Source: a virus
Virus record (IMG/VR): IMGVR_UViG_3300025732_000123
Location: 1-36,760 of that record
DNA length: 36,760 bases
Direction: 5' to 3' (one strand)
Under the pieces are notes generated by a model. The model had not been told where the DNA came from and did no database searches. It saw only the letters and a list, made by a program, of their open reading frames with translations. Position 1 is the stretch's first letter. Every line of letters starts with the position of its first letter. Positions 1 through 36,655 of the stretch are shown here, in pieces. Position numbers and translations under genes: made by a program.

Positions 1-306
1 CTACCCTAAGCGCCTCCAGCACTGTTTCTGGAACGGGTTTTTCGACCTATCTTGCTTCGCCTCCAGCGATTGGATCGACTGCGGCTAATACAGGAGCGTT
101 CACTACCCTAAGCGCCTCTAGTACAGTTTCTGGAACGGGGTTTTCGACCTATCTTGCTTCGCCTCCAGCGATTGGATCGACTGCGGCTAATACAGGAGCG
201 TTCACTACCCTAAGCGCCTCCAGCACTGTTTCTGGGACTGGGTTTTCTACTTATCTGGCATCTCCTCCAGCTATTGGCGGAACTACTCCGGCGGCAGGCA
301 ATTTTA
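1..306 (+). repeat. Three tandem 102-bp repeats in the tail-fibre gene
   Basis: Units begin at 1, 103 and 205, each opening with CTACCCTAAG. Copies 1 and 2 differ at only about four bases; copy 3 diverges after about base 230. Each unit encodes 34 residues in frame, so unit gain or loss changes fibre length without a frameshift. More copies may lie left of the window. Confidence 0.9.
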
Positions 307-1343
307 CTACTTTAAGCGCGACAGGGCTGACAGTATTAAACGGCGCCATTGCCTCAGCTGTTGCAGGCGCGGAAGTATCTCTTATCGGAACGCTTCCAAC
401 CACAGGCTCTAGTGTTGCATACGGGCTTTGGTCAGATGTCACGATGCCATCAAATGCGACGGGTTCATCGTTTGGTATTAGCAGTCGAGTTTCCACAGCA
501 GCAGCATCGTTCACTGCCGGAACGATAGCCAACTACGCAGCAGGTTTTACATCGCTTGGAGCTGGCTCATCAATCACAAATTTATATGGATTTTTTACGC
601 AGGCAGGGCTCACCGTTGCGACCAGTGTAAACGCTGGTTTCTTTTCAAACATTGCCGCTTCTGGCTCCCTGAGGTGGAACTTTTACGCAAATGGTTCTGC
701 GCCGAATTACTTTGCGGGGCCGCTTGGAATAGGCGCAACGACGACCGGAGACCCGCTTAGGATTGCAGGGACCATAAATCATTCTGCGTTTTCTAATGCT
801 CAAATTATTGACGCGACGATTGGAAGCTCAGTAACAAGCGGTTTTCGCGGAATAATGAGTAGACCAATCACTCAGAATGCGGCGTTCACACTTGGCCAAC
901 TAACTCATTTTTATGTAAATCCGCAAACTAAAGGCGCAAGTTCAACAATCACAAACCAGTACGGATTTTTTGTAGAAAGCTCAGTCACTGACGCAACAAA
1001 CAATTTTGGGTTTTACAGCAACATTGCGGCTGCTTCTCAGCGGTGGAATTTCTACGCTGCTGGGACTGCTGCTAATTATTTTAATGGAAATGTTGGAATT
1101 GGGTCTAACGTATTTGGAACAAGTGCTACAAACACTATTTGCATAGCCACAGGAACAGCCCCGACGACTGGCCCTGCTGACACAATTCAGCTTTACAGCA
1201 CCGACCTAAGCGCAGGAAACACAATCCCAAGTTTTTATACAGAAGGGACAAACGTCGGAACCGGGACGCCGACCGCCAACCGAACCATCGCAGTCCGGTT
1301 TAATGGCACCGTATACTATTTACTTGCATCAACTATACCGTAA
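3..1343 (+). CDS. Tail-fibre protein, 5'-truncated by the window edge
   Basis: The reading frame is open from base 3 to the TAA at 1341-1343, so the true start lies left of the window; the internal ATG at 444 is not the start. The N-terminal visible part is three 34-residue repeats of the type common in phage tail fibres (TLSASSTVSGTGFSTYLASP, then PPAIGSTAANTGAFT). It is followed by two copies of a module built around ITNxYGFF ... GF(Y/F)SNIAA ... WNFYAxGxAxNYF, near bases 570-720 and 945-1085. The same module occurs in the fibre gene at 2818. The end has Gly/Thr/Asn-rich beta-type sequence and closes with TVYYLLASTIP. The inferred role is adhesion or host recognition as part of the virion. 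The family type is fairly sure; the receptor is unknown. Confidence 0.85.
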   Translation, partial: TLSASSTVSGTGFSTYLASPPAIGSTAANTGAFTTLSASSTVSGTGFSTYLASPPAIGSTAANTGAFTTLSASSTVSGTGFSTYLASPPAIGGTTPAAGNFTTLSATGLTVLNGAIASAVAGAEVSLIGTLPTTGSSVAYGLWSDVTMPSNATGSSFGISSRVSTAAASFTAGTIANYAAGFTSLGAGSSITNLYGFFTQAGLTVATSVNAGFFSNIAASGSLRWNFYANGSAPNYFAGPLGIGATTTGDPLRIAGTINHSAFSNAQIIDATIGSSVTSGFRGIMSRPITQNAAFTLGQLTHFYVNPQTKGASSTITNQYGFFVESSVTDATNNFGFYSNIAAASQRWNFYAAGTAANYFNGNVGIGSNVFGTSATNTICIATGTAPTTGPADTIQLYSTDLSAGNTIPSFYTEGTNVGTGTPTANRTIAVRFNGTVYYLLASTIP

Positions 1344-1352
1344 GGAGGAGAA

Positions 1353-1511
1353 ATGGAAATTAAACTCACGCTTTCCGTAGAGGAAGTAAACGCTATTTTG
1401 CAGACCCTTGGGCAGTTGCCCACGTCTTCTGGCGCGTGGCCCTTGGTAGTCAAGATAAAATCGCAGGCCGAGAGCCAGATTCCGAAGGCCCCTGAAGGAG
1501 ATAACCAATGA
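1353..1511 (+). CDS. Small conserved phage protein next to the tail fibre (52 aa)
   Basis: ATG at 1353 follows a strong Shine-Dalgarno (AAGGAGGAG at 1342-1350) directly behind the fibre stop. The protein begins MEIKLTLSVEEVNAILQTLG and continues with QLPTSSGAWPLVVKIKSQAE. This resembles small phage proteins found beside tail-fibre genes, with a hydrophobic helix followed by an LPxxSGAWPL segment. The TGA stop overlaps the next ATG (ATGA at 1508-1511), so the two are probably translationally coupled. The function is unknown; a helper or minor structural role is a guess from position. Confidence 0.75.
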   Translation: MEIKLTLSVEEVNAILQTLGQLPTSSGAWPLVVKIKSQAESQIPKAPEGDNQ

Positions 1512-1840
1512 TTACGTATACGTGGACGGTGACCGCGATGGAAGCCGTCACTGAGGGCAGCTTGGATAACGTAGTAGTTATCAGCTACTTCACATGCACT
1601 GGGGAAGAGAACGGACTTAAAGGCAATGCTTCAAGCGATTGCAGGCTGCTTCCTCCGAACCCCGGAAACTTTATTCCGCTTGATCAGATTACAGAACAGG
1701 AAGCGGTGACTTGGACACTGGAGGCCCTTGGTTCTTCAGGCGTGCAAAAATATGAGCAGATGGTGGCCGCGCAGATTGAAGGTCAAAAAACACCGTCTCC
1801 GCAGTTTGTAGACTTGCCATGGCTTCCTCCATCGGACTGA
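1508..1840 (+). CDS. Small tail-region protein (110 aa)
   Basis: It starts in an ATGA overlap with the 52-aa gene. It opens with MITYTWTVTAMEAVTEGSLD, then DNVVVISYFTCTG, and ends with helical EALGSSGVQKYEQMVAAQIE and a Pro-rich tail (PWLPPSD). The opening YTWxVxxMxxVxxxxxxxNVVxxxxxxxTG and the late EQM..QIE..KTP segment resemble small proteins encoded near tail-fibre genes in cyanophages and related phages. I infer a virion-associated or fibre-assembly role. No catalytic motif is visible. Confidence 0.7.
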   Translation: MITYTWTVTAMEAVTEGSLDNVVVISYFTCTGEENGLKGNASSDCRLLPPNPGNFIPLDQITEQEAVTWTLEALGSSGVQKYEQMVAAQIEGQKTPSPQFVDLPWLPPSD

Positions 1841-1851
1841 CGAGCAATTAG

Positions 1852-2805
1852 GTGAGCGCCTACTCTGACCAATATGTTGAATACGGATACTGGATATCAG
1901 GGTATGCGGTAGGAGACATCACCTACGGTGATGTCTCCGGTGTTTCTTGTACAGGTGCGGTTGGTACGGTTACTACCAGCCAGAATGTTAATTACACGGT
2001 TTTGGGGGTAAGTGGTACCGCCCAAATTGGAACCGTGACGGCATTTTCTTCCGTCACAATAAACGTTTCTGGGGTATTTGCAGCAGGTCAAGTAGGGGCG
2101 GTCTCTACTATACAGAACGTTTCGTTCTTGACGACCGGAGTTGGGGGAACTGGCAACTCTGGTACGGTATCGATTGTCACTGGGAATCTTATCGAGGTTT
2201 CTGGGACTTCTGGAACAGGACAAGTAGGCACAGTTCAAGCGTCTGGAAACGTGACCTATGTGGTTACTGGCGTATTTGGATCTGGCCAAGTCGGAACGGT
2301 ATCTACCGCACAGAACGTTTCTTTCTTGACGACTGGAGTCCAAGGGACCACGGCCCTTGGAACAGTTTCTACCACGACCGGTACGTTTATATCGGTTACC
2401 GGGACAGAAGCAGCAGGCGCGGCGGGGCAGGTTCAGACCTCCCAAAGCGTTGTTTACGAAACAACGGGGGTTTCTGGAATAGGTCAGGTTGGTACTGCGT
2501 CCGCGCTCCCGACAACTTTGGTATCCGTATCTGGGGTAAGTTGCTCTGGAGCGGCGGGAACTGTATCGGTATCCACTCTTTCTGGCGTCGTGGGCCTTGG
2601 TCAGTTGGGCTATGTTGTTGTTTGGGCGACAATAAACGACAATCAAACCCCCGGCTGGGCCGTGGTCAATGACGCCCAAACAGCCAACTGGCTGACTGTT
2701 TCAGACTCACAGACACCCGCATGGGCTGCCGTAGAGGGAACTTCTTCCCCGGGGTGGTCTGTTGTAGACGATTCCCAGACCACGACATGGTCACGAGTAG
2801 CATAG
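1852..2805 (+). CDS. Repeat-built tail protein (VSGVxGxGQVGTV repeats, W-rich end)
   Basis: Starts with GTG at 1852, with only a weak ribosome site; no better start is in frame. About residues 25-255 are degenerate 17-20-residue beta repeats of the form (V)SGVxGTGQVGTVxxxxxV, such as GVFGSGQVGTVSTAQNVSFL. Residues 258-317 switch to a second class, six W-starting units spaced 11 residues apart. The pattern suggests a beta-solenoid or beta-prism shaft with a different tip. It lies between two fibre genes in the same orientation and ends 12 bp before the next one. The inferred role is a fibre shaft or decoration protein. The repeats are certain, the role moderate. Confidence 0.75.
   Translation: MSAYSDQYVEYGYWISGYAVGDITYGDVSGVSCTGAVGTVTTSQNVNYTVLGVSGTAQIGTVTAFSSVTINVSGVFAAGQVGAVSTIQNVSFLTTGVGGTGNSGTVSIVTGNLIEVSGTSGTGQVGTVQASGNVTYVVTGVFGSGQVGTVSTAQNVSFLTTGVQGTTALGTVSTTTGTFISVTGTEAAGAAGQVQTSQSVVYETTGVSGIGQVGTASALPTTLVSVSGVSCSGAAGTVSVSTLSGVVGLGQLGYVVVWATINDNQTPGWAVVNDAQTANWLTVSDSQTPAWAAVEGTSSPGWSVVDDSQTTTWSRVA
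2623..2799 (+). repeat. 33-bp (11-residue) W-(x)-VxDxQTPxW repeat tract
   Basis: Trp codons recur every 33 bp from 2623 (W258, W269, W280, W291, W302, W313). Each unit follows the scheme W-x-x-V-x-D-x-Q-T-P-x. DNA identity between units is low, so the period is kept at the protein level. Confidence 0.8.
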
Positions 2806-2817
2806 GAGCGAGCGATA

Positions 2818-5622
2818 ATGGCTACATATACGAATCTTGGCATCAAGCAAATCACCACGGGCGACGAATCCGGCACGTGGGGCGATTCGACCAATACCAA
2901 TTTTGATTATTTTGACACGGCCATTGTTGGTTATGTCAGCGTTACGCTTGCTTCTGCGGGTAGTTCTGGTTCTCCGAACACGCTCAATGTTGCGGATTTT
3001 GCAGCGTCTAACGGGCGGAACAGGATTGTTGAATTCGTGGACGCGGGAGACCTTGGAGGCACGACCTACGTCCAGATTACCCCAAATGATTTTGAGGGGT
3101 ATTACTTTATTCGGAACGGGCTTTCGGGAAGCCGCAGTATTTTGCTGTTCCAAGGGACGTATGACGCTGCTCGTGACTACGAGATCCCGAACGGGAAAGA
3201 CATCGTTGTGCGTTGTTCTGGGGGCGGTAGCACGTCTTACATCTACAATGTGCTAGAAAACCTGCAGGTAGGGAATCTTTCGGTATCTTCGCTGACTGCC
3301 AGCACGGCGCTTGCGCTTGATGCGAACAAGAATGTGGCCAGCGTTACCAATACAGGCACTGGCAACAACGTTTTGGCCACCAGCCCAACTCTTGTTACTC
3401 CTGTCCTCGGCACGCCTACTTCTGGAACGCTGACGAACTGCACGGGGCTTCCCGTTTCCTCCGGAATTTCTGGATTAGGAACCGGGGTCGCAACGTTTTT
3501 GGCAACTCCCTCTTCCGCAAACCTTGCTGCGGCGGTTACTGATGAGACGGGCAGTGGAGCGCTTGTATTTGCAACGAGTCCGACTCTTGTCACCCCTGTT
3601 CTTGGAACGCCTACTTCTGGAACGCTGACGAACTGCACGGGGCTTCCCGTTTCCTCCGGAATTTCTGGATTAGGAACTGGGGTCGCAACGTTTTTGGCAA
3701 CTCCCTCTTCCGCAAACCTTGCTGCGGCGGTTACTGATGAGACGGGCAGTGGAGCGCTTGTTTTTGCAACGAGTCCGACTCTTGTCACCCCTGTTCTTGG
3801 AACGCCTACTTCTGGAACGCTGACGAACTGCACGGGGCTGCCTGTTTCCTCCGGCATTTCTGGACTGGGAACAGGGATCGCGACGTTTTTAGCAACCCCC
3901 TCTTCTGCAAACCTTGCTGCAGCGGTTACCAATGAGACGGGCAGCGGAGCACTTGTATTTGCGACGAGTCCGACGATCACAACTCCGGCAATTACAGGCG
4001 GAACCCTTGACAATACACAGATTGGAAATACTTCCGCGACATCCGCTAGGTTTAATTTTAATTCATCCAGTCCTACAGCGGTACGAGTTGACGGGGCAGA
4101 CACTGGGCCTACTGGGGCAAGTTATAGAATCACCTTTGAAGATACAGTAACTCTTTCTTCCGCTGTATCCGGGATAGGATCAACACATGTTTCTTATAAT
4201 GCAAACCCCAGCACCTCAGCCTCTACTGCATTAGAGGCTTATTATGCTTATCTTACTTATGGTATAGCGAAAGGAACTAGCGCTACTGTAGATAATCAAT
4301 ATGGATTTATAGTTGGAAACAGCCTTACCGACGCGACTACTAATTACGCTTTTTACACTAACCTAGGCGCTTCTGGAACTAGTCGCTACGGTTTTTACGC
4401 CGCAGGCAGTGCACCGAACTACTTCGGCGGTAGCACAGTAATCAGCGTCACCGACAACACTAATGCTGCTCTGCGCGTCACGCAGCTTGGCACGGGTAAC
4501 GCGCTGTTAGTCGAAGACAGCACCAATCCTGACGCGACGCCTTTCGTAGTTGACGCGTCTGGAAATTTAGTCAAAGGCTACACCTCCGCTGTTTCTACGG
4601 TTGGGATTAGTTCCGCCGTGTATACACCGGGAATTCAAGGACATACTGCGGGCAGCACACAGGGTAGTTTTGGTCTATTTACATGGTCTACAAACACTAC
4701 TTTTGCAAATATCATAAATTTTAGTCGAAGCAGTAATGCAACGGCGGGGTCTTACACGGCTGTAGCCTCTGGCACCAATCTTGGAGACATCCTCTGGTGC
4801 GGGGCTGACGGAAATTCTACTAGTTCCGAATTCGCTCCCGCCGCTAGAATTACTGCGCGATGCGATGGAACCGTTGCTGATGGTTCTGTTCCCGGGAAAA
4901 TACTTTTTGCTACCACGGCAGCGGCAGGGACAAACCCAACGACAAGAGTAAGTATTGATTCTAACGGGTATGTTGGAATTGGTAATACTTTTGTTGACCC
5001 CCAAAAGCTACTGGATCTTGCGGGGAGTAATCAGGGAGCGGCTTCGGATACCCCGGTAAACACCCTTCGATTCACTGATACCGACACCACGTCTGCCGCC
5101 AATCAGCCGATTGGTAAAATTGAGTTTTACAATTCAGACGCCACTAACGCGGCGGTTGGCGCTTACATCCTTTCGTCCTCGGCGGGTGTAGACGGCGGTG
5201 GTACGATTCGGTTTGGTGCTGCGGCTAACGCGGCGACTGTCGCCGAAATCTGTCGAGTTGCCGATACCGGCTTCACGATGACCAAGGATACTGCGGGCCT
5301 TGGTTATGGGACTGGGACGGGTGGCGCAGTTACTCAGGCCACCAGCAGAACGACAGGTGTCACGCTGAACAAGACGAACGGCGCGATTACGCTGGTCTCT
5401 GCGGCAGGCACGGCGACATGGCAGAGCTTTACGGTGACCAATAGCACAGTGGCTGCGACGGACGTGGTGATCGTGAACCAAAAGTCTGGGACTGACCTGT
5501 ATATGATGCACGTCACGAACGTTGCCGCTGGATCTTTTCGTATCTCATTTGCTACAACTGGCGGAACGACGACAGAGCAGCCGGTGTTTAATTTCGCGGT
5601 TATCAAGGCAGTGGCGGCCTAA
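2818..5622 (+). CDS. Large modular tail fibre (934 aa)
   Basis: ATG 2818 follows TAGGAG. The N-terminus (NLGIKQITTGDESGTWGDST, then NTNFDYFDTAI) matches the phage fibre pattern 'GDExGTWGxxTNTNxxxxxxA', likely the virion-attachment end. Residues about 187-381 hold three near-identical 65-residue repeats. Around residues 490-540 is the QYGF...LTDATTNYAFYTNL...YGFYAAGSAPNYF module shared with the fibre at the left edge. Next come an ALRVTQLGTGNALLVEDSTN repeat-type segment and a VSIDSNGYVGIGN head-type segment. The C-terminus (TNSTVAATDVVIVNQKSGTD) is a beta domain seen at the end of other phage tail proteins. The inferred role is host recognition; the tip specificity is unknown. Confidence 0.85.
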   Translation: MATYTNLGIKQITTGDESGTWGDSTNTNFDYFDTAIVGYVSVTLASAGSSGSPNTLNVADFAASNGRNRIVEFVDAGDLGGTTYVQITPNDFEGYYFIRNGLSGSRSILLFQGTYDAARDYEIPNGKDIVVRCSGGGSTSYIYNVLENLQVGNLSVSSLTASTALALDANKNVASVTNTGTGNNVLATSPTLVTPVLGTPTSGTLTNCTGLPVSSGISGLGTGVATFLATPSSANLAAAVTDETGSGALVFATSPTLVTPVLGTPTSGTLTNCTGLPVSSGISGLGTGVATFLATPSSANLAAAVTDETGSGALVFATSPTLVTPVLGTPTSGTLTNCTGLPVSSGISGLGTGIATFLATPSSANLAAAVTNETGSGALVFATSPTITTPAITGGTLDNTQIGNTSATSARFNFNSSSPTAVRVDGADTGPTGASYRITFEDTVTLSSAVSGIGSTHVSYNANPSTSASTALEAYYAYLTYGIAKGTSATVDNQYGFIVGNSLTDATTNYAFYTNLGASGTSRYGFYAAGSAPNYFGGSTVISVTDNTNAALRVTQLGTGNALLVEDSTNPDATPFVVDASGNLVKGYTSAVSTVGISSAVYTPGIQGHTAGSTQGSFGLFTWSTNTTFANIINFSRSSNATAGSYTAVASGTNLGDILWCGADGNSTSSEFAPAARITARCDGTVADGSVPGKILFATTAAAGTNPTTRVSIDSNGYVGIGNTFVDPQKLLDLAGSNQGAASDTPVNTLRFTDTDTTSAANQPIGKIEFYNSDATNAAVGAYILSSSAGVDGGGTIRFGAAANAATVAEICRVADTGFTMTKDTAGLGYGTGTGGAVTQATSRTTGVTLNKTNGAITLVSAAGTATWQSFTVTNSTVAATDVVIVNQKSGTDLYMMHVTNVAAGSFRISFATTGGTTTEQPVFNFAVIKAVAA
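3376..3960 (+). repeat. Three tandem 195-bp repeats in the large tail fibre
   Basis: Units start at 3376, 3571 and 3766 and a partial fourth opens at 3961. Each encodes 65 residues starting ATSPTLVTPVLGTPTSGTL and ending ETGSGALVF. Units 1-3 differ mainly at third codon positions, with one or two amino-acid changes (GTGV to GTGI, TDET to TNET). The near identity suggests recent expansion or gene conversion. Confidence 0.92.
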
Positions 5623-8615: not shown

Positions 8616-10524
8616 AGGTATCATGTCTTTAGGGGAGAACATGGATTCTTCCATGGCCCCGAGCGTCCCCGAAGTTTCTCCAGAAGAGATGCAGCAATTC
8701 GAGTCTGCCGTGCGAGAGTATGCTGCAGAAGACCCACAACGCTTCGGAAAAGATCTGATAGAAACCATCGAAAAGGCAGACCCTCGTCTTGTCGCCCAGC
8801 TCCGTGCAGTACTGGAAAGAGTAGCCCTCCCAGAAGAAGTCATCGATGCCTTGGGCAAAATGATAGATGCTCTCGTAAGCGAGCCGGAGAACTACGAAGA
8901 AAACCGACAGGGGTTTATTGACGAGGGGGTTCCGCCCGACATTCTTCCGGAAAGGTTTGATCCTGCTTTTTTTGCTGCGATGAACATCGTTTTGGACGAA
9001 CTTTCCGAAAAAATGTCGCAGCGGCCAGAGATCCCCTCCATGAATTTTGCGGAAGGCGGACTGGCAACCCTTAAGCCTCTTGCCGCCGCTGTTGCAGCGC
9101 AAGGACGCAAGCAGGACACGATGCTTGCCCACATCACCCCCTCAGAAGCACGTCTTCTACGTCGAAACGGGGGCAGCGGAACTATAAACCCCATCACAGG
9201 GCTCCCAGAATTCTTTTTGAAAAGTATTTTCAAGGCCGTTGGAAACATCTTTAGTGGGGTAGCTAAAGCCGTTACTGGCCTTGTTAAAGGCGTTGTCAAC
9301 GTCGTCAAGTCGGTAGCGTCCAATCCTATTGGGAGGGCGGTTCTGACGGTTGGGGCAACTTTTTTACTCGGGCCTGCCGGCCCGTTTGGGGCAGGTCTCG
9401 CAGGGTCTTTGGGGCTTGCGGCAATGCCTAATCTTGCTCTTGCCGTGAACACGATGGCCGCAAGCACTCTTGTTGGTATGGCAAGCGGGCAAAAGTTTGG
9501 AGACGCGCTTAAAACTGGGCTTATAACCGGCGCAACGGCGGGCATTGGTGCCAAGGTTTTTGGGCTAACTCCGACCTCATACAAAGAAGCCGCTGCTGCC
9601 GCCACTGCAAAAACAGCGGGTGCAACAGGAGCAGCGGGGGGCATTGAAACTCTTAGCAACGCAAAAACAGCGGGCATTGAGGCTGGAAAAGAGGCCGTTA
9701 CGCTTGATACGGTTCCGATGAAACCTTCGGATGTCGCCACTGGGGAGCTGTCAGCGGCCAAAGACGTGTTTACTCCCGCAGATGTAAACGCGTACACCTC
9801 TCCTGCTACTGCGGCGGCAGAGCCGTCGTTTTTCTCAAAAGCGGGGGACTGGGTCAATCAAAACATCATGCCCGGAGGAATTAAGGAAGCCGGGATGGCT
9901 AGTGCAAAAGAGGCTTACAACACCACCCTTTTGGAAACCGGAAGTAAGTCGGCGGCAATGGAAGCGTTCAAGGCCGCGACCCCGGGTATTCTACGGACAT
10001 ACGGTCCTATCACAGCCGCAGGACTTGGGGCAGCGTATGCGCTTGGCGCTTTTGATACTCCGGAGGTAGAAGTTCCCCCTGAATTCAAGGGAATGATTGA
10101 TCAAAGGTATGCCGGAAAAACGGGATACCAGCTCCTTGAGGAAGACCCAGAAAAATGGGCTTTCAAACTTGGTGGGGCGGATACCGCTTACATCACAAAA
10201 GACCCCTACGCCTACCCAAACCTGTCGACAGATCCTAATGCTTACGACCTCGTTACGTCAGGCTTGACTCCCAACCAAATGGCGGCAGCGCCAGCGGTCG
10301 TAGCTGCCGCCTCTGGTGGAGAGATAAATCATTTTCCAAGAAAGACAGGACCCATTAACGGCCCCGGAACTGGAACTTCTGATTCCATCCCGGCGATGCT
10401 ATCGGACGGGGAGTTCGTGTTTACAGCCAAAGCAGTACGAGGAGCGGGCGAAGGCTCTCGCAGAAACGGTGCAAAACGCATGTATGCTTTAATGAAAGCA
10501 TTAGAGGGCAACTCCAATGGTTGA
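8608..10524 (+). CDS. Putative internal virion / membrane-active structural protein (638 aa)
   Basis: ATG 8608 follows AGGAAAGG. Residues 1-145 are acidic and helical. FAEGGLATLKP (about 148) carries the GG motif shared with other proteins here. Residues 170-204 (TMLAHITPSEARLLRRNGGS, then GTINPITGLPEFFL) form a motif seen in phage virion proteins. Residues about 205-310 are a long Gly/Ala/Val hydrophobic and amphipathic stretch that could insert into membranes. The C-terminus has GPINGPGTGTSDSIPAMLSD followed by GEFVFTAKAVRGAG and RRNGAKRMYALM, a conserved C-terminal block of many phage structural proteins. I infer an ejection or internal virion protein; a tail protein is the alternative. 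Confidence 0.7.
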   Translation: MAEGIMSLGENMDSSMAPSVPEVSPEEMQQFESAVREYAAEDPQRFGKDLIETIEKADPRLVAQLRAVLERVALPEEVIDALGKMIDALVSEPENYEENRQGFIDEGVPPDILPERFDPAFFAAMNIVLDELSEKMSQRPEIPSMNFAEGGLATLKPLAAAVAAQGRKQDTMLAHITPSEARLLRRNGGSGTINPITGLPEFFLKSIFKAVGNIFSGVAKAVTGLVKGVVNVVKSVASNPIGRAVLTVGATFLLGPAGPFGAGLAGSLGLAAMPNLALAVNTMAASTLVGMASGQKFGDALKTGLITGATAGIGAKVFGLTPTSYKEAAAAATAKTAGATGAAGGIETLSNAKTAGIEAGKEAVTLDTVPMKPSDVATGELSAAKDVFTPADVNAYTSPATAAAEPSFFSKAGDWVNQNIMPGGIKEAGMASAKEAYNTTLLETGSKSAAMEAFKAATPGILRTYGPITAAGLGAAYALGAFDTPEVEVPPEFKGMIDQRYAGKTGYQLLEEDPEKWAFKLGGADTAYITKDPYAYPNLSTDPNAYDLVTSGLTPNQMAAAPAVVAAASGGEINHFPRKTGPINGPGTGTSDSIPAMLSDGEFVFTAKAVRGAGEGSRRNGAKRMYALMKALEGNSNG

Positions 10525-13500
10525 TACCGTTACCACCCAGATCGTACGAGAAGCGCCAGAAGTAGAGGCGCAGCGCGCCGCTGTAATTAAATCGGCTCAA
10601 GACGAGATTGCAAAAACACTAGAACTTCCTGCTTACCAAGCCGCAGGTCTTTCACCTTTCCAGAAATTTGCAGAAACAAATCTACTAAAAGATCTCGGGT
10701 ATACCGGATACGACATCACGCCGGCTACAAAAACATCTCCTGCCATCTACACGCTAAAAGGGGATGGAATTTCAGGGTGGGAGGACTACCTAGCTGACGC
10801 CGACACCACAATAGGCTCCGGCGTTGATTATGCTGAGTTAGGTAAACAAGCCCTCAGCGACCTTAATTTGTCTACCTTATACTCCGGTGCACAGGGGGCC
10901 TATACGTCTGGGCTAACGGCAGCAGGAGCCGCTTCTACTCCGAGTCTAACAAACGCGCTGGGGTATTTGGACGCAGGAGCGGGATACGCAAAAGACGCGG
11001 GAGGCCGGGCTGACGACTACCTTGCGGCAAATCTTGCAAATGCCCAAACCACTATTGGCACTGGGACATCTGCTCTTACAGCGGCGACTCCTGACTATAC
11101 CAATGCAGTCACCGCGACCAACAACCTAGGCAATACCGTTGCCACCGCAACAAAAGGCGAGACCGGGATTGCGGGAGGGATTGCTGGGCTTAATTCCGCT
11201 CAGGCATTGATTGGGGGATTCACGCAGGCGAATCTAGCCCCTAGTCAGACCGCGATCAATGCCGGAATTGGTTCAGCAACGGCGATAGATCCGAACTTTT
11301 CCGCCGCCAACGCGGCGGCAAGTGGAATAGGGCAGTTTATCAACGCTGCAGACAACGGGCTTGATACAGTAGCCAAGGGAACTGCTGGAATGGGGCAAGC
11401 TGCGATGAAAGCTAGCCAGTATTCTGGAGCAGACCTAGCAGCAAGCGATGCTGCGTTGCGTCAAGGACTTTCTGCTGCGAGTAGCGTAGACCCTAATTTT
11501 GCCGCGTCTAGAGCAGTAGCTAACCAACTTGGAACTTATGCTGATGCCGCAGATAGCGGTATAGGGACGATTCAAAAAGGGGTCAGTGGAATGACCTCTT
11601 CTGCGCGAGATATAGGGCAGTATTCTCAGGCGGATTTAGGGCGTTCTCAGGCGTTTCTCGGACAGGCTGCACAGCAGGCAAGGGGCGCTGATGTTGACAT
11701 GGGAACGGCGAATAAGGCCGTTCGTGCAGGCCTTCAAAACGCCTCGAACGTTGCTGAGGCAGCTCTTCCCGCCCAGAAACAGGCAGCTAGAACTATCAAT
11801 CTAGGGATTGAGGGACTTTTGCAGGGCGCTGAAGCATATTCGCCAGAAGCTGCTCAGGAGTTTATGAACCCCTATCAACAGGCGGTGACACAAAAGGCGA
11901 TGCAGGAAATGCGTCGTCAGGCGAACATCGCAAGGCAGGATATGGCCGCGCAGGCAGTGCGGGCGGGGGCCTTTGGAGGGACTCGCGAAGGCGTTCAGCG
12001 AGCGGAATTTGAGCGAAACATCCAAGACCAGATGCAGCAAAAGATTCTGCAGGATTACGCTCAAAACTATGGGCAGGCGCAACAGGCCGCAATGGCAGGA
12101 TTTGAGCAACAGCAACAGCGTCAGCTGGGGCAAGGAAACCTTCTGGGTAATCTCGGTCTTTCGCAGAGCGAAATTGGGCAGCGTAGTGCCGCCGCCATTG
12201 CACAAGAAGCCGCGCTTCAGGGGCAGCTTGGTACGCAGGCAGGAGCACTGCAGTCCGCGCAGGCGCAGGCGGAACTTGCCCAAGCGCAGCAGCTGGCAAA
12301 TATCGGAACTCAGATGGGGCAACAGGAGCTTCAGCAAGCGCAGTTGGGGCAGCAGGCCGAAACATCCGAGGCGGCTATCTACCAGAACCTTGTTCAGGCT
12401 GGGTATGCTCCCGCGCAGATCGCTCAAATCCAAAGCCAGATACAAGCGCAGCGTGCGGGACTACTTACCGACGCGCAAACTCGCGAACTCCAGACAGAAT
12501 TGCAGAGGGCACAGCAGATCACGCAGTCTGGGCAGGCTATGGGGCAACAGGCTGTTCAGCAGGCGCAGCTCGGTCAGGCGGCCACAGGCCTTGAGGCAAA
12601 TATCTACCAAAACATGGTTCAGGCTGGGTATACGCCGGCACAGATTGCTCAGGTACAGGGGCAGATGCAGGCACAGCAGGCGGGTTTGCTGACGGACACT
12701 CAGTCCAGAGAACTTCAGGCAGAATTGCAGCGCGCACAGCAGCTCGTTGCCGCTGGCCAAACTCTTGGTCAGCAGCAAATTCAGCAGACCCAACTTGGCC
12801 AACAGGCTGCTCAGGCGCTTGCCGGAATGTCCTCGCAAGAAGCGCAGGCTGGCATGCTGTACGGAGATCTCGCCGCCCAAAGTGCGAATATATACAACCA
12901 GCAGGCACAGAATCTTGCCAACATGGAAACCCAAGAGGCACAGCTTGGTATTCAAAGGGGCCAGCAGCTTGTAAATGCAGGAAACGTGCTTGGGCAACAG
13001 GAGCTTCAGCAGACTCAGCTTGGTCAGCAGGGAGTGCAGAACATGGCTGCAGTCGGACAGGCCCTTGGGCAGATAGGAGCGCAGCAGGGGCAGTTGAGCC
13101 TTGGTTCGGGGCAGTTCGACCTTCAGAAGGGGCAGTTGTACGGGCAGCTTGGACAAGGGCTTGGAAGTATTGCTGGGCAGCAAGCAGAAGCGACCTTGGC
13201 CAAAGGACAAGGGCTTGGAAGTCTTGGCCAACAAATGGCGTCAATGGGCGTCCAGCAAGCCGCGCTTGGGCAAGCGCAGCAGCAGCTTGAACAGTCCGAC
13301 GTTTCCATGCTTTACAACATGGGCGTGGGCCAGCAGCAAAATGCACAAGCGCAACTTGATGCGGCCAGAGCAACCTCTCTTCAAAATGCTATGCAGGAGC
13401 GTAACGACGTTGCTTTCTTGTCTGACGTCGTCTCTCGCGTTCCTTCTACACAAATGTCTATGTCGGCAACAACTGCCCCATCAACTTCTCCCCTGCAGAC

Positions 13501-13567
13501 CATAGCGGGGATTGGAGCGGGCGTTCTTACAGGCGCAGGGGCTGCTAGCAGAGCCGGAATCATCTAA
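10517..13567 (+). CDS. Gln/Ala/Gly-rich repetitive virion protein (1016 aa)
   Basis: Overlaps the previous gene by 8 nt. Residues 1-90 are globular-looking. Residues about 100-430 are Ala/Gly helices with repeats (DPNFSAANAAASGIGQFINA against DPNFAASRAVANQLGTYADA). Around residues 460-530 is QAVRAGAFGGTREGVQRAEF, a motif recurrent in marine and freshwater phage structural proteins. Residues 540-960 are a long Gln-rich heptad-like tract with units such as AQLGQQAETSEAAIYQNLVQ and AGYAPAQIAQIQ repeated about every 80 residues. I expect an extended coiled coil, as in internal virion or tape-like proteins. It contains no enzymatic motif that I can recognise. Confidence 0.7.
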   Translation: MVDTVTTQIVREAPEVEAQRAAVIKSAQDEIAKTLELPAYQAAGLSPFQKFAETNLLKDLGYTGYDITPATKTSPAIYTLKGDGISGWEDYLADADTTIGSGVDYAELGKQALSDLNLSTLYSGAQGAYTSGLTAAGAASTPSLTNALGYLDAGAGYAKDAGGRADDYLAANLANAQTTIGTGTSALTAATPDYTNAVTATNNLGNTVATATKGETGIAGGIAGLNSAQALIGGFTQANLAPSQTAINAGIGSATAIDPNFSAANAAASGIGQFINAADNGLDTVAKGTAGMGQAAMKASQYSGADLAASDAALRQGLSAASSVDPNFAASRAVANQLGTYADAADSGIGTIQKGVSGMTSSARDIGQYSQADLGRSQAFLGQAAQQARGADVDMGTANKAVRAGLQNASNVAEAALPAQKQAARTINLGIEGLLQGAEAYSPEAAQEFMNPYQQAVTQKAMQEMRRQANIARQDMAAQAVRAGAFGGTREGVQRAEFERNIQDQMQQKILQDYAQNYGQAQQAAMAGFEQQQQRQLGQGNLLGNLGLSQSEIGQRSAAAIAQEAALQGQLGTQAGALQSAQAQAELAQAQQLANIGTQMGQQELQQAQLGQQAETSEAAIYQNLVQAGYAPAQIAQIQSQIQAQRAGLLTDAQTRELQTELQRAQQITQSGQAMGQQAVQQAQLGQAATGLEANIYQNMVQAGYTPAQIAQVQGQMQAQQAGLLTDTQSRELQAELQRAQQLVAAGQTLGQQQIQQTQLGQQAAQALAGMSSQEAQAGMLYGDLAAQSANIYNQQAQNLANMETQEAQLGIQRGQQLVNAGNVLGQQELQQTQLGQQGVQNMAAVGQALGQIGAQQGQLSLGSGQFDLQKGQLYGQLGQGLGSIAGQQAEATLAKGQGLGSLGQQMASMGVQQAALGQAQQQLEQSDVSMLYNMGVGQQQNAQAQLDAARATSLQNAMQERNDVAFLSDVVSRVPSTQMSMSATTAPSTSPLQTIAGIGAGVLTGAGAASRAGII

Positions 13568-13576
13568 GGTATAGCT

Positions 13577-15670
13577 ATGAAATCAAAAGTGCTTAATCGA
13601 AAAATGTTCCGTAAAGGCATGGACATTGAGAACGTGGGCATCATGGACGGCTTCAAGGACTCTATGCACGAGTCCCTTATGGAAGCTCTGTCAAAAAATG
13701 GAATGCCGGAAGAAGACGATGATGCACTAGAACGCGAAGACGACGACGAGGAGGGGGAATCCGGCAAGATGATCGGGCGCACGCCGCGCTCTCCAGAAAT
13801 CCTCATGAATACCCTGCGTGGAGACATGCGCTCTCCTGACGCTCGCCGTAAGGAATTGGCAGATCTCGTAGGCGAAGAAGCCGCCATGGAAACTCCCGAA
13901 GAAGTGCTTACTCTTCTTCAATCCAAACTCGGGCAGGGAATCGCAAGCGTTCCCGGCCAACAGAACGCGGGCCCAGCGCCCGGTGGGGCTACTCCTCCCC
14001 CCCTCCCGCCATCGGGCGCTGGTGCACCGCCCTCTCCCGCCGGGGGAGGCCTAGCGGACCTTGGGCAGCAGCTTCAGGGAGCGGGCGTAACGGCTGGGGT
14101 TCAGCCCCCCGCAATGCCCCCGGGAGGAATGCCCCCGGGAGGAATGCCCCCGGGAGGAATGCCCCCGGGAGGAGCGCTTCCACCGCTAAACATGGCTGAC
14201 GGGGGAGAGGTAAGTTATGCCCGTTATGCGGCGGGCGGGGAAGCTAAAAAAAAAGCTAACCCGTTTTCATCTTTAATCCGCCCCCTTGATTCTAATGCCG
14301 TTGAAAGTAATGCGAAGGCGTACGAGAGGCTGTTTTCTTCCGCCTTGGGGCAAGACCTAAAGCGAGACAAAGAACTAGAACGGGCGGCCCTGCTGGCGGA
14401 TATCTCGCGAAGAAGTTTTGCGTTTGCCGCGAACCAAGATGCCAGAGGAAACCCCTTGAGCGGCTCCTTTGCCTCACGTGCTGCAGGGGCCTTTGGTGAT
14501 GTCCCTTCGTTGGCCGTAAAGTCGGCAGGACGGATAAATTCCATGGGCCAAGAAGCACGGCTCGCGGCCCTGCAACAGGCTATTTCTGACGAAGTCATAA
14601 ACAGGAAACTAGAGGGCGAACTTACGGCAAGTGCGCTAAAGGATAGATCGACAGCAACTAAACCACTGGGAATGTTCTCTATCCAAGACAGTAGGGGGAA
14701 TATCCTAGCAAATGTGGAAAGGGTTATAAACGAAGATGGGGTCTCTACTTCCTTGGTGGATTTACGCTCAGGAAAGCCGTATGTTTTGGGAGAAGGCGAA
14801 CAGGTAGTTGAACTCCCAACGGCGTCAAAGAATAAGAGTAGCCCAAATTCCATTACTCTTTATGACATCAATAAACGCAGGGTGGTGGGGTCAGGAGTTG
14901 AACAAGACGGAAGGTTGTTTTTCCTAGACGGGACCCCGGCTCCGGCCAACATCACAGGCATGAAGATCAATCCGTCCATGGTTCCGGACACTGAGGAAAG
15001 AAAAGAAGATTCCGAAGTAAAAATTGATGCCGCAGACCAGATCTTAATGCCCGCACTAAGGGTGGCCCAAAGCATAACCGAGAACCCAGATTCAGCGACC
15101 TCTGTCAACAGGATTGCAGGGGCTTTGGGTGAGTTTGGCACAGAACTATCGGCGCTTGGTGGAAAATTTGGAGGGGATAGCGGGGCAGAAAAAATCAACG
15201 ACATCTTTAATCCCAATAACTATGCCGTTTTTGACGAGGCAAATATCACGTCAAACAACATGAGAACAGGTCTTCTCGCTCTTGCCTATGCCGTTGCAAA
15301 AGCACAGCGAGGAGGAAAAATTACTGCGGAGTTTAGTAACAAGGACATGGAGCAGGCGCTTATGTCGGTGGGTGCCGGAAGTGGTGACCCAAGGGTTATC
15401 TTGTCCAATGTAAATAACGTGGTAAGAGGAGCCTACGAAGGGGCGTTTATCAATCGAATGAATGCCTATGATGAACCGTGGGATCCCCCGAAGATTAACG
15501 GAATGATTGACGCCCATTTGAGATCAAAAGGGATAGACCCTGCGGTGTTTAATCCGCGTATTCCCCCTGCTGTAGGGAGCCAAGGGCCTTCATCCGAAAC
15601 TGGGATAGCCCCGTCTTCCAACGTGATCTACTCTGGGGATGGTTTCAGTATTGAAGCCGAAAACGATTAG
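13577..15670 (+). CDS. Large virion-associated protein with Pro/Gly linker and GG motif (697 aa)
   Basis: ATG 13577 has only a weak AAGG upstream. The N-terminal 90 residues are very acidic (PEEDDDALEREDDDEEGESG). Residues about 120-215 are a Pro/Gly/Ala linker containing MPPGG four times and then NMADGGEVSYARYAAGGEAK plus KKANPF. After the linker the protein is mixed alpha/beta. Its late segment (KINDIFNPNNYAVFDEANIT; LALAYAVAKAQRGGKI; FSNKDMEQALMSVGAGSGDP) is well structured and looks like a conserved domain, which I cannot name. It lies between two other presumed ejection proteins, so a virion or scaffold role is inferred. Confidence 0.65.
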   Translation: MKSKVLNRKMFRKGMDIENVGIMDGFKDSMHESLMEALSKNGMPEEDDDALEREDDDEEGESGKMIGRTPRSPEILMNTLRGDMRSPDARRKELADLVGEEAAMETPEEVLTLLQSKLGQGIASVPGQQNAGPAPGGATPPPLPPSGAGAPPSPAGGGLADLGQQLQGAGVTAGVQPPAMPPGGMPPGGMPPGGMPPGGALPPLNMADGGEVSYARYAAGGEAKKKANPFSSLIRPLDSNAVESNAKAYERLFSSALGQDLKRDKELERAALLADISRRSFAFAANQDARGNPLSGSFASRAAGAFGDVPSLAVKSAGRINSMGQEARLAALQQAISDEVINRKLEGELTASALKDRSTATKPLGMFSIQDSRGNILANVERVINEDGVSTSLVDLRSGKPYVLGEGEQVVELPTASKNKSSPNSITLYDINKRRVVGSGVEQDGRLFFLDGTPAPANITGMKINPSMVPDTEERKEDSEVKIDAADQILMPALRVAQSITENPDSATSVNRIAGALGEFGTELSALGGKFGGDSGAEKINDIFNPNNYAVFDEANITSNNMRTGLLALAYAVAKAQRGGKITAEFSNKDMEQALMSVGAGSGDPRVILSNVNNVVRGAYEGAFINRMNAYDEPWDPPKINGMIDAHLRSKGIDPAVFNPRIPPAVGSQGPSSETGIAPSSNVIYSGDGFSIEAEND
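14114..14173 (+). repeat. Four perfect 15-bp repeats encoding MPPGG
   Basis: ATGCCCCCGGGAGGA is repeated four times head to tail at 14114, 14129, 14144 and 14159. It is in frame with the 13577 gene and each unit contains CCCGGG. Each unit also looks like a Shine-Dalgarno plus ATG (GGAGGA-ATG), though spacing to the next ATG is too short for initiation. Confidence 0.95.
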
Positions 15671-15679: not shown

Positions 15680-17812
15680 ATGGCCGCCCAGTCTTTTAGC
15701 ATCAATGTTGACGGCAAAAAGTACAAGATAACTGCGGACAGCCCCGAAGCAGCCGAACGCGGATTCAGGAAAGTTCAGGAGCTTCGGGAAAAAGAGACTT
15801 CTCCGCAGGGGTTTGCTGAGAAGGCATTGGATTTCGGACAAGGCGTTGCTGAGACCGGAATGACAATGGCTTCGTCGATGCTTGCCGAACCGCTTGCTGG
15901 GTGGAAGGGGCTTTATAACCTCGCGACAGGGGATCTGAACAAGGCCGCAGAGTCTGTCGAAAAAACGCAGGAAGAGATGACTTACGAGCCTAGGTCTAGG
16001 AGCGGAAAAGCGATTGTAGGAGCTGCTGGGCAGCTTATGGAGCCTGTAGCGAAGGCAGCCGACTGGACAGGCGAGCAGGCAGCAGAAGCTCTTGGTCCGG
16101 CGGCTGGAGCGGCTGTTCGTTCTGGAATCGAGTTTATTCCTAATTTGATCCCGGGCGGAGGAGTAGCCAGAGCCGCTGGAAATGTAAAATCTGGGGCAAA
16201 AAATCTGGCGAAGGGAGAGGCTAGAAAGGCCTTGGAAGACTTAACAGCGGCAGCCGCAAATGCAAACATATTTTCGGCTGTTTCTCCCGATAAACTAGGC
16301 AGAAAAGATCTCGTCAAGAAGGCCACCAAGCGCTTTGCTGAGTCCGGCATAGACTTGACTGAGCCAGTCGCGACGCAGGCCAAGCAATTTGTACTAAAAG
16401 CTAAAAATTTGTCTGGAAATCAGGTTCGTTATGCTGAACGACTGAAAGAAATTGCAGACGCTGGGCGGAGATTAGATCAAAGATACAAAGAAAAAGGGGA
16501 CGAGTTGTATACGCTCGCTTCTTCAAAGAAAGCAGCGATTCCTCAAAAAGCGTTCTTGGATTTTTCGGACGACATCACGAACTACATTAACGAGGGTCGT
16601 TTTGCGCTTGATGCAATGCCTCAGCTTAAGGCAGTTCTTAGTAACATAAAAAAACAGGCTGAAATGCCTGACGCTGTTCCCATGGGAGGGCCGAACGGAA
16701 TCGTTACGCTCAGAAGGGCTCTTGGGAAAAGAGTAAAGGGCGAAGAAGGCGCAGCATTTGGCCACATCCGGGCAAGGCTTGATGGCCTTATCCGTGATGC
16801 TTACGACAACCAAACAATGCTTGGGGATAGGTCTGTTTTTCCGGCGCTTATTGGCGCGGATAAGTTCTGGGCGAATTATCGGCGTCTATTTGACGAAGAA
16901 AAAGCAGTTCGAAAGATACTTAGCAACAAGGAGATCACGCCGGAGGAGGTTCGTAAATCCTTGTTTGGAGAAAGCGCGCAGAAGTACCCGGCGGGTGCCC
17001 AGCGTGTTATGTCTCGCTTAAAGGAAATTTTTGGAGAAGATAGCCCGCAGATAAAGGCTCTTTCAACAGAGGTACGTTATTCCGTGTTGCAGCCTCTTCT
17101 GGAAGAGAGAGATCTCAGCAAGTTCAAGGAAAACGTCGATAATCTTTTGCTTAAAAACTACAGCCTTGCAACGGAGCTTTTGTCGCAAGACGATATAAAG
17201 AATCTCCGCTCGATGCGAGACTGGGCATCGGCCTACGACGCCACAAAAATGGGCAAAGAAAAGATTTCAGAGGCGCTGGATAGGCCCGCAGCAATCCTCA
17301 TTGCCAATGCTCTGGGCGCAAATAACACACTGGCCCTGAGTACCCTTAAGCAACAGGCGCTGCAAAAAGTACTAGGCCTTGTGGGCAGAGGCGCGGACGT
17401 TGATAGAAAACGCCTGCTTTCTGAGATAGCCGGCGTCGATCTTTATAGCCCTATGTCTGACATAAAGACGGTTGCCGCTCCTGCGTGGTTGCAGGAAGCG
17501 TATAACATTGCAGAAGAAGAGGCCAAAGATAAGCTGCTCAATGAGGTATCCGCCAAAAGACGGATGGAGGCTTTTCGAGGGGCATTTGAAAAAAATGCTG
17601 CTGTCCCCTCCACAAGAGGAATGCCCGGGTCTCAGGCACCTGCTGCTCCAGCGCCGGCGGCACCTGCTGCTCCCGCTCCGGGAGGAGCGCCGAACAGCCA
17701 GAGCCGCATGATGCTTGAGCAGTTGTTCCCGAACGACCAGCTTTTGCAGGGGCTCACTCCCCCGGCACAGGCGGCAGTACCTCCCGAGGAGGAGCAGCAA
17801 CCTGCGGCGTAG
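15680..17812 (+). CDS. Putative internal virion / ejection protein (710 aa)
   Basis: ATG 15680 follows AGGAGAAG. It begins with FSINVDGKKYKITADSPEAA followed by ERGFRKVQEL, a compact beta-alpha unit often found at the start of phage internal or tail-associated proteins. Residues about 50-190 are Ala/Gly-rich and amphipathic. Residues 200-620 are mostly helical and charged. The end is a Pro/Ala linker (APAPAAPAAPAPGG) and NSQSRMMLEQLFPNDQLLQG before an acidic tail. It is the last plus-strand virion gene, and its final 59 bp overlap the convergent exonuclease gene. No lytic-transglycosylase motif was recognised. Confidence 0.6.
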   Translation: MAAQSFSINVDGKKYKITADSPEAAERGFRKVQELREKETSPQGFAEKALDFGQGVAETGMTMASSMLAEPLAGWKGLYNLATGDLNKAAESVEKTQEEMTYEPRSRSGKAIVGAAGQLMEPVAKAADWTGEQAAEALGPAAGAAVRSGIEFIPNLIPGGGVARAAGNVKSGAKNLAKGEARKALEDLTAAAANANIFSAVSPDKLGRKDLVKKATKRFAESGIDLTEPVATQAKQFVLKAKNLSGNQVRYAERLKEIADAGRRLDQRYKEKGDELYTLASSKKAAIPQKAFLDFSDDITNYINEGRFALDAMPQLKAVLSNIKKQAEMPDAVPMGGPNGIVTLRRALGKRVKGEEGAAFGHIRARLDGLIRDAYDNQTMLGDRSVFPALIGADKFWANYRRLFDEEKAVRKILSNKEITPEEVRKSLFGESAQKYPAGAQRVMSRLKEIFGEDSPQIKALSTEVRYSVLQPLLEERDLSKFKENVDNLLLKNYSLATELLSQDDIKNLRSMRDWASAYDATKMGKEKISEALDRPAAILIANALGANNTLALSTLKQQALQKVLGLVGRGADVDRKRLLSEIAGVDLYSPMSDIKTVAAPAWLQEAYNIAEEEAKDKLLNEVSAKRRMEAFRGAFEKNAAVPSTRGMPGSQAPAAPAPAAPAAPAPGGAPNSQSRMMLEQLFPNDQLLQGLTPPAQAAVPPEEEQQPAA

Positions 17813-18491
17813 CGTCATAGTAGGCGCTTACCCGGCGCAGCCATTTCTCCTGATGTTGGGCGAAATCGCGGCCCGTGGTCGTAAACTCCAGCATGGTATT
17901 CGCATCATCACGGCAAGCCATTAGGATTACGCCGTAATCGATGCGAGTACCGTGGACCATGTCGTGTGCAAGCGCATACGCTGCGAGTTGCTGAAAATAG
18001 CTGTCGATCCAGCCCCTTCTTTTGACCTTATTGGACTGTTTGAAGTCGATAATGGCCAACTGACCACGGTACACGGCCACCATGTCCGCTGTTCCAGCAT
18101 ACTTGTCCGGGTAGTACAGGGGCACCTCGGAGCCATGGATGGCGTCGATGTTCTTGAAGAAGGTATTGATGAGCCGATAGCCCATTTCATAGCCTTTTGT
18201 CATGGCCCAGTTCGTCGGCCTTGGCAGGTCTCGCATAGCCACCATTCGTTCGATCACAGAGTGCATGTGGGTGCCCACAAGGGATGCCTCTGTTTTGATG
18301 CGCTCTGCCTCTTCTGTTCCAACCCTGTTTTCCCAGTCTTTCAAGGCCTGTTTGTCGCCTGTTGACGACAAGATATGGGTCACGCTGGGAAGGCGCTGTT
18401 CACCGTACACGTACCGGCGCCCGTTGGGGCCGTCTTCCCGACGTAGTTCTTCGTATTTGAACTCTTTCCTGATGGGTATCAAATCAACCAT
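17754..18491 (-). CDS. PD-(D/E)XK exonuclease of the RecB/Cas4/MGME1 type
   Basis: ATG (18491 on the minus strand) lies 9 nt after GGGAGGA. The 245-residue protein has LPSVTHILSST (34-44), a common opening of this family. VGTHMHSVIE (72-81) supplies the conserved His. The core is YAGTADMVAV (D136), LAIIDFKQSNK (D149, K151) and the motif-IV-like YFQQLAAYALAH (Q167/Q168, Y172). This is the catalytic layout of PD-(D/E)XK exonucleases. It is encoded behind, and overlaps by 13 nt, a SNF2-type helicase, so the pair probably acts in recombination or DNA end processing. The Pro-rich C-terminal tail lies inside the convergent virion gene. Confidence 0.88.
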   Translation of the reverse strand: MVDLIPIRKEFKYEELRREDGPNGRRYVYGEQRLPSVTHILSSTGDKQALKDWENRVGTEEAERIKTEASLVGTHMHSVIERMVAMRDLPRPTNWAMTKGYEMGYRLINTFFKNIDAIHGSEVPLYYPDKYAGTADMVAVYRGQLAIIDFKQSNKVKRRGWIDSYFQQLAAYALAHDMVHGTRIDYGVILMACRDDANTMLEFTTTGRDFAQHQEKWLRRVSAYYDATPQVAAPPREVLPPVPGE

Positions 18492-21708: not shown

Positions 21709-23238
21709 ATGACCAACGAACTCTCGCAATTCATGGCGATATTCGAGGGACTCGACATCGCCTATGGCACCTATCGAATTGAGGGGTCGAAATCCAATGG
21801 AAAACAAGCAGGAAAAGCGGTCGTCGTCAGACAACCTCCGACTAAGGACCTTTGGGAACGACATCTACGAGGAGGTGAGCCTTCTCTGGGAATTATTCCG
21901 ATTCGTGGCGATAATTCTTGTGGGTGGGGCTGTATTGATATTGACCAGTATCCTTTGGACCTTGGACTGGTTGTTCACAAGGTTCGCTCCCTTGGCCTCC
22001 CTCTAGTTGTTTGCCGCTCCAAATCCGGAGGCGCGCACGTATTTTGTTTTGTTTCCTCTCCTATCCCTGCTGGAGATATGCAGGAGTACCTGCGTGCCTG
22101 CGCGGCACTGATAGGTGAATCAGGTCGGGAAATTTTCCCAAAGCAGGCGGAAATTCTCATAGAGCGTGGGGACACGGGGAACTTCCTGAATCTGCCGTAC
22201 CACAACGCGGACGAGACGCTTCGATATGCGATCAAGGACAACGGCGAGGCGGCGACACTAGAAGAGTTCTTCGAACTCTACCGGCAGCATGTCCAGACGC
22301 CTCCGCTGACTATTCCGCAGGCTCCTAAGGCCGCAGAGAAGGTCATCGCCGACGGGCCGCCTTGCTTGCAGGCCTTGTGTTCACAGGGGTTTCCGGAGGG
22401 CACGCGTAACAACGGCCTGTTCAGCCTTGGCGTCTATCTGAAGAAGGCGTTCCCCGAAGCATGGGAGAACAAGCTCATGGAACACAACATGAACTACTTC
22501 TCGCCCCCGCTGGGAATCTCCGAACTGCAGATTGTCGTCAAGCAGCTCAACAAGAAGACATATAACTACAAGTGCAAGGACCAGCCGCTGGTTAGCTTCT
22601 GCAACAGTGGGCTGTGCCGCACGCGTAAATATGGAATAGGGTCCGAGGGTCCTGATAGCCCTCGCCTGACATCTCTCAGCAAGTACGCATCAGAGCCGCC
22701 GCTGTGGTTCTTGGACGTGAACGGGAAACGCATCGAACTGGAGACAGAGAGCCTGTTCAATCAGGCATCTTTCCAGAAGGCTTGCATGGAGAAGATTAAC
22801 GTAGTCCCTCCGACGCTGCGTAAGAACGACTGGGAAAGTGTCCTGAATGGACTTCTCCGCGAGATGGTGGAGCTGGAACATATTCAGGACGCCTCAGAGG
22901 ACACGACCACGACGGGGCGCTTCAACGACCTTCTCGAAGAATTTTGCACGCACCTGCATCAAGCCATGGACCGTGATGAAATCCTCATGGGCAGGCCATG
23001 GACGGACGAAGAGCAGGCAGCGGTGTACTTCCGAATGAAGGACCTAGAGGCGCACTTGAAGCGCAACAACATGCTTCTTTCATCTCCTAAAGTAGCGCAG
23101 CGACTACGCGACCTCGGAGGGCAGTCTCAAGTGCTGTGGCTCAAGGCCCGCGCAACACGGGTCTGGAAGATCGACGCATTCACTAAACAGGACTCCCCGT
23201 TCCCAACGCCGGAACAAAGCTCGGGTGCTCCGTTCTAG
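21709..23238 (+). CDS. Archaeo-eukaryotic-type (TOTE-like AEP) DNA primase
   Basis: The 509-residue protein has the AEP signature: WGCIDIDQYP with the metal-binding DxD (D77, D79), RSKSGGAHVFCF (SGGxH, 106-110), then EILIERGDTGNFLNLPYHNA (residues 148-167). The third acidic residue probably lies in this last block. A C-terminal half starts PPCLQALCSQGFPEGTRNNG and carries three spaced Cys (C289, C298, C303) plus C219/C224, which may bind zinc or an Fe-S cluster. This matches TOTE-type primases of phages. It would make primers for the polymerase encoded two genes on. It sits behind a terminator, with no strong ribosome site. Confidence 0.88.
   Translation: MTNELSQFMAIFEGLDIAYGTYRIEGSKSNGKQAGKAVVVRQPPTKDLWERHLRGGEPSLGIIPIRGDNSCGWGCIDIDQYPLDLGLVVHKVRSLGLPLVVCRSKSGGAHVFCFVSSPIPAGDMQEYLRACAALIGESGREIFPKQAEILIERGDTGNFLNLPYHNADETLRYAIKDNGEAATLEEFFELYRQHVQTPPLTIPQAPKAAEKVIADGPPCLQALCSQGFPEGTRNNGLFSLGVYLKKAFPEAWENKLMEHNMNYFSPPLGISELQIVVKQLNKKTYNYKCKDQPLVSFCNSGLCRTRKYGIGSEGPDSPRLTSLSKYASEPPLWFLDVNGKRIELETESLFNQASFQKACMEKINVVPPTLRKNDWESVLNGLLREMVELEHIQDASEDTTTTGRFNDLLEEFCTHLHQAMDRDEILMGRPWTDEEQAAVYFRMKDLEAHLKRNNMLLSSPKVAQRLRDLGGQSQVLWLKARATRVWKIDAFTKQDSPFPTPEQSSGAPF

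Positions 23239-36411: not shown

Positions 36412-36655
<244 letters not shown>

Follow-up and report, generated by a model that had tools for sequence, protein, structure and literature searches.

Changes in the number of small domains or repeats within phage tail fibres are described in the available parts of several publications. In the Xanthomonas oryzae phages OP1, Xp10 and Xop411 duplication and deletion of tail-fibre domains has given the layouts -1-2-3-, -1-2-2-2-3- and -1-2-3-3-3-, and the repeats were suggested to be sites of recombination (PMC2248197). Tandem duplications were described in a tail fibre of Enterococcus phage EfV12-phi1 (PMC6365445) and duplications in the adhesin of T4 (Tetart et al. 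1996, as cited in PMC2248197 and PMC6365445), while in the metaviromic islands of marine phages the tail-fibre genes vary within otherwise conserved natural populations (PMC3909814). The available part of PMC11323893 describes no tandem fibre repeats. Repeat-number change in tail fibres is already established, and the locus presented here is a natural, uncultured example with clear recombination footprints. As in the Xanthomonas phages, small in-frame fibre domains vary in number among close relatives; in those phages, which are isolates, the domains are, as far as described, N-terminal and changes in their number are linked to host range, whereas here the units are internal and belong to uncultured phages known from sequence alone. 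As in EfV12-phi1, the copy number of an in-frame tandem repeat changes in a tail-fibre gene within one population, but the EfV12-phi1 unit is 1.8 kb long and was observed during laboratory coevolution, whereas the units here are of 195 and 102 bp, are natural and carry the probable footprint of unequal crossing-over. In T4, too, a small fibre domain was duplicated, in that case of the adhesin, and the likeness is one set by description. In the marine islands it is the C-terminal part that varies and recruits poorly (PMC3909814), while the present fibres vary in the interior and are conserved at both ends.

The DNA analysed (hereafter the window) is a linear virus record of 36,760 bases. It derives from an uncultured aquatic phage of the class Caudoviricetes which carries two neighbouring tail-fibre genes with coding tandem repeats in their central parts; the features discussed in the text are listed in Table 1.

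Table 1. Positions in the window of the fibre genes, their repeats and modules, and genes of possible relevance to recombination.
Feature	Position	Strand	Remarks
102-bp (34-aa) array, three units	1-306	+	Contig starts inside array
Fibre gene 1	3-1343	+	5' end missing; 446 of the 542 residues of the complete open frame
YGF...NYF module, gene 1 copy 1	about 558-719	+	
YGF...NYF module, gene 1 copy 2	933-1088	+	
Gene between the fibres	1852-2805	+	GTG start; own degenerate repeats
Fibre gene 2	2818-5622	+	934 aa; matches to phrog_9942 (tail fiber) and phrog_18251
195-bp unit 1	3388-3582	+	
71-bp stretch common to units 1 and 2 (identical)	3412-3482	+	Holds the junction of the two-unit form in L003; L016 ends at its last base
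195-bp unit 2, mosaic	3583-3777	+	3583-3644 as unit 3, remainder resembles unit 1
195-bp unit 3, most diverged	3778-3972	+	
YGF...NYF module, gene 2 single copy	4273-4438	+	
Fibre 2 C-terminal part, residues 761-934	5098-5619	+	83-94% identity in 9 of 11 relatives; L019 49%, L021 62%
Exonuclease (phrog_298)	17754-18491	-	Possible recombination function
Recombination endonuclease VII domain protein	31395-31964	+	

The assignment of both genes to the tail fibres is a prediction which rests on profile matches, tblastn matches and gene neighbourhood. The tail fiber profile phrog_9942 covers residues 401-858 of fibre 2 (E 7.8e-9) and the phrog_18251 match sits at its C-terminus. Fibre 1 (P0001) was without a match in Pfam and PHROG searches, and its placement among the tail fibres follows from tblastn, which matched it to the tail fiber protein of Burkholderia phage BcepC6B and to virion and tail-fibre proteins of cyanophages; residues 1-173 are 55% identical to BcepC6B gp19, a likeness of sequence only. 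Next after fibre 2 comes a gene assigned to the virion structural proteins (phrog_3287), whose product shares 70% identity with the 'stabilization protein' of Phage DSL-LC04 (Dishui Lake). Fibre gene 1 was found complete in contigs L016, L003 and L119, as an open frame of 542 amino acids (537 from the ATG), and, the 195-bp array apart, these contigs are identical to the window over the lengths shared.

An earlier note on this DNA had reported three 102-bp and three 195-bp repeats. Both arrays were recovered, at 1-306 and 3388-3972, the latter in a register 12 bases away from the one originally given (3376-3960). Tandem Repeats Finder scored them at 470 and 1006, respectively, far from chance, and as both periods are multiples of three within open frames the repeats are in-frame. 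In the 102-bp array units 1 and 2 differ at 4 of 102 bases and units 1 and 3 at 26 of 102; in the 195-bp array the corresponding counts are 7 and 22 of 195, with 18 of 195 between units 2 and 3. In either array units 1 and 2 share 96% identity, and every change between them is synonymous (4 of 4 and 7 of 7), while unit 3 is older than units 1 and 2 in both arrays. Searches of Pfam, PHROGs and NCBIfam gave no convincing match for the repeat region or the 65-aa unit. Alignment of the 34-aa with the 65-aa unit by hhalign (probability 11.7, E 0.0025, over 19 columns) is suggestive of a common origin, which we do not claim.

Unit 2 of the 195-bp array is a mosaic of its neighbours. It contains 21 informative sites (two further sites are uninformative), of which the first 5 are unit-3-like and the next 16 unit-1-like; the probability of all five unit-3-like sites coming first is 4.9e-5, or about 1 in 20,000 arrangements. 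Because unit 2 starts like the last unit and ends like the first, the pattern points to unequal crossing-over between two two-unit arrays, although the same picture would be left by gene conversion that had these endpoints. The explanation proposed here, and considered probable as a whole, is that whole in-frame units of these repeat-bearing tail fibres are gained and lost through homologous unequal recombination between units, and that, in the longer term, blocks of units and interior modules are passed from one fibre gene, or one phage, to another, the two ends of the fibre staying largely fixed. The likely consequence would be an altered spacing or flexibility of an interior segment of the shaft, possibly affecting adsorption. 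Given the phrog_298 exonuclease, the endonuclease VII domain protein and the helicases that it also encodes, the phage could, on its gene content, recombine by its own means.

Turnover of this kind would be visible as one-unit differences between closely related contigs, and such differences were found. Contig L003 (sample 3300006875) equals the window over 1-3482 and 3607-5357, yet has two 195-bp units, exactly one fewer; its first unit is window unit 1 joined to unit 2 within the 71-bp identical stretch, and its second is window unit 3. Three units are present in L002 (sample 3300006802), which has zero differences from the window over 10,927 bases, but the two perhaps stem from overlapping data sets and were not treated as independent. 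In a second lineage L007 has two 195-bp units and L009 one, with no mismatch over L007 23-1545 and 1730-11502 (approximately 11 kb) and a junction placed within 11 bp; since the two L007 units differ from each other at 13 of 195 bases while the flanks are identical, the one-unit form of L009 would most simply be a deletion. A third contig, L011, is 93% identical to L007 over 4.6 kb and lacks the 195-bp unit, and the sub-lineage L011, L009 and L007 forms a series of 0, 1 and 2 units. In the 102-bp family, L171, L173 and L174 differ from L176 and L177 by 159 bp in the array (160 for L174), the L171/L176 junction having an exact overlap of 3 bp, and the homologue of the gene between the fibres differs by one 66-bp unit between the near-identical L009 (7062-7236) and L014 (6996-7236). 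At 3032-4600 L174 is one base off the array length of L171 and L173 and its open frame is split there into two, through either a real frameshift or a sequencing error.

Differences in copy number between contigs might also be produced by short-read assembly which collapses or breaks at repeats while the true arrays are fixed, and collapse at tandem repeats is a known problem (PMC6868369, in the part available). The assembly trouble suspected in the earlier note was borne out, as several contigs end inside these arrays: L016 stops at 3482, exactly where a 71-bp shared stretch has its last base; L014 does so at the base that corresponds to L007 1692, which closes a shared stretch of 122 bp. Both ends resemble assembly-graph branch points, and L015 likewise terminates inside the array. 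As such ends are typical of short-read assembly at repeats, the L003 case, which could be a collapse at the 71-bp stretch, is alone no proof; collapse is also possible for L009/L014 and L136/L153, where the shared stretches are long (105-171 bp). The junctions of L009 (11 bp) and of L171/L176 (3 bp), however, are below the usual assembly word sizes and would not easily be explained by collapse. Furthermore, the first L007 unit is independently present in L014, and the mosaic unit 2 lies within an array that stands unchanged in L002, which may share data with the window. Fixed arrays miscounted by assembly are judged an improbable source of the differences as a whole. The contig ends at 3482 and L007 1692 were also considered as two alleles in one sample, a reading which was dropped, as the same end results from path extension in an assembly graph.

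To assess the extent of the variation, 100 merged array regions were compared; they came from 66 of the 218 loci that remained once duplicate handles of a contig had been removed. Eleven lineage-array comparisons had both flanks in at least two contigs, the lineages being grouped by eye; L007/L009 at the 66-bp array gave a partial row, which was excluded as L007 begins inside that array. Five of the 11 differed in length (the window phage at its 195-bp array, L007/L009 at 195 bp, L009/L014 at 66 bp, L136/L153 at 123 bp and the L171 group against the L176 group at 159 bp) and six were equal (the window phage at its 102-bp array, L043/L045 at 60 bp, L071/L074 at both 162 and 78 bp, L136/L153 at 54 bp and L161/L162 at 102 bp). 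A 78-bp shift between L071 and L074 was rejected as a unit change, as the runs do not overlap in the way of a unit deletion and both mapped arrays are of equal length. The 195-bp array varies in number (3 against 2 units, and 2 against 1), while the 102-bp array of the window phage showed no copy-number difference, each of the three contigs with a complete gene 1 (L016, L003 and L119) having exactly three 34-aa units. A copy number fixed in all relatives, with diverged units, had been named in advance as the finding that would speak against recent expansion; when checked, it was contradicted by the one-unit differences between otherwise identical contigs. Drawn from uncultured phages in several samples, these data provide evidence at the level of sequence that repeats in fibre genes grow and shrink in nature; for one of the pairs (L007/L009) collapse is improbable. 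They also serve as a warning that viral contigs are prone to break or be miscounted inside fibre genes.

Conservation along the fibres was high at the ends and low between them. In gene 2 the N-terminal 160 residues are 82-99% identical (five relatives compared), residues 386-540 are 40-45% identical (seven compared) and residues 541-760 mostly 44-56% identical (nine compared; 93% for L008), with identity high again in most relatives over the C-terminal part (Table 1). Gene 1 follows the same pattern, its ends being shared and its interior variable, except that L009 departs from it at the C-terminal end and that two alternative N-termini occur. With the ends conserved and the interior variable, the exchanged part would be mainly interior, and the idea that the paralogues swap tips found no support, since it is the interior that varies and the C-terminal ends that are conserved. 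Two relatives show an exchange between the positions of gene 1 and gene 2, involving the repeat array and a body segment; it could have taken place by way of the paralogue or of another phage alike. L018 carries the 195-bp array at the gene-1 position with a gene-1 C-terminus. Between one unit of this array and a gene 2 unit of L005 there are differences at 3 of 195 bases, whereas identity in the flanking gene-1 end is no more than about 74%; L019 fuses a gene-2-like body to a gene-1 end. L018 also has a neighbouring repeat-rich gene of 1225 amino acids (9110-12784).

The YGF...NYF module was found, as the earlier note had it, twice in fibre 1 and once in fibre 2. The high DNA identity attributed to the repeats at this locus is a property of the tandem arrays, the YGF stretches being only 62-74% identical over 39 bp. 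A tree of 53 YGF modules (31 different) requires no more than 2 switches from one gene to the other, compared to about 10 when shuffled, so that the modules of the two genes are almost entirely separate and appear mostly to stay in their own gene. Where recent expansion or gene conversion had been suggested, expansion by recombination was upheld by the mosaic unit and the one-unit differences between otherwise identical contigs, while conversion of the YGF module between the paralogues was not, in view of the low DNA identity and the tree.

Tail fibres are typical targets of diversity-generating systems, which is the sole point in favour of a dedicated system, such as a diversity-generating retroelement, acting on these genes. 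A reverse transcriptase (PF00078) was detected in 0 of the 9 records searched, some of them fragments (the control was positive in 3 of 14 genomes), and the changes consist of the gain and loss of whole units and of synonymous substitutions, with no directed pattern of substitution; a system of this type is thought extremely improbable.

The 65-aa unit encoded by the 195-bp repeat is widely distributed. One cultured phage with a related unit is Pseudomonas fluorescens phage PfAn1. At least 530 relatives were found in viral contigs (the best 80 of at least 530 were kept), as well as 23 loci in bacterial genome contigs (L222-L244), including Bradyrhizobium isolates and MAGs of candidate phyla, which points to a common fibre module unmatched in the Pfam, PHROGs and NCBIfam searches; a literature search gave no paper matching the peptide TNCTGLP. 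For comparison 162 units from 101 loci and 90 lineages were registered by an anchor motif. The nearest unit by DNA was in the same genome for 41 of the 89 units of multi-unit genomes, compared to 0.7 expected with shuffled labels, and in 31 of 41 pairs of neighbouring units at least 43% of the four-fold sites are different. As most adjacent pairs are strongly diverged, recent expansion as in the window is the minority state. On a tentative reading, which we regard as rather unlikely, the unit would be a mobile spacer cassette, unnamed as yet and widespread in the fibres of aquatic phages, and, being conserved in protein, tandem and present in several genes, would form a standing substrate for recombination, with populations holding several fibre lengths at once; it would then be the phage counterpart of the variable-length ('periscope') surface proteins of bacteria, as these are presented in the available part of PMC8201768.

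The consequence of a change in unit number, as distinct from the recombination itself, may be none. The units could form a permissive linker that expands and contracts neutrally, its frame kept only by selection against broken fibres, and we put the chance of this at somewhat less than even. Unit counts which range from 0 or 1 to 6 across phages, and a protein sequence that is conserved whereas unit number varies, are consistent with such a linker; against it are the precedents of OP1 mutants and T4, in which the number of fibre domains alters host range (PMC2248197, in the part available). It is a reasonable inference that unit number would tune fibre length, as the earlier note had proposed. 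AlphaFold2 monomer models of fibre 2 (13 sequences, mean pLDDT 39.5) and of the complete fibre 1 from L016 (10 sequences, mean pLDDT 35.2) were too poor to use, also with regard to a putative trimeric beta-structured shaft, and profile searches against solved structures listed 3 sequences in one case and 0 in the other up to an E of 1 (best 0.092), with no convincing relative.

Several other repeats and genes were observed in the window and its relatives. The window itself starts at the 102-bp array, and about 32 copies of the hexamer GGCTAC occupy 36435-36628 near its right end, so that both contig ends are at or near repeats. Another assembly break point is formed by the tryptophan-rich repeats that end the gene between the fibres, within which lie the start of L002 (2693) and the end of L119 (2769). 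Overlapping direct repeats that are 71% identical (12314-12576 and 12539-12801) lie in a gene of 1016 amino acids (10517-13567), and a perfect 15-bp repeat of 4.1 copies (14113-14173) encodes MPPGG repeats in the gene at 13577-15670. Finally, the protein encoded at 21709-23238 is primase-like, with a match to the archaeo-eukaryotic primase domain of the TOTE system (PF22548, E 1.6e-11).
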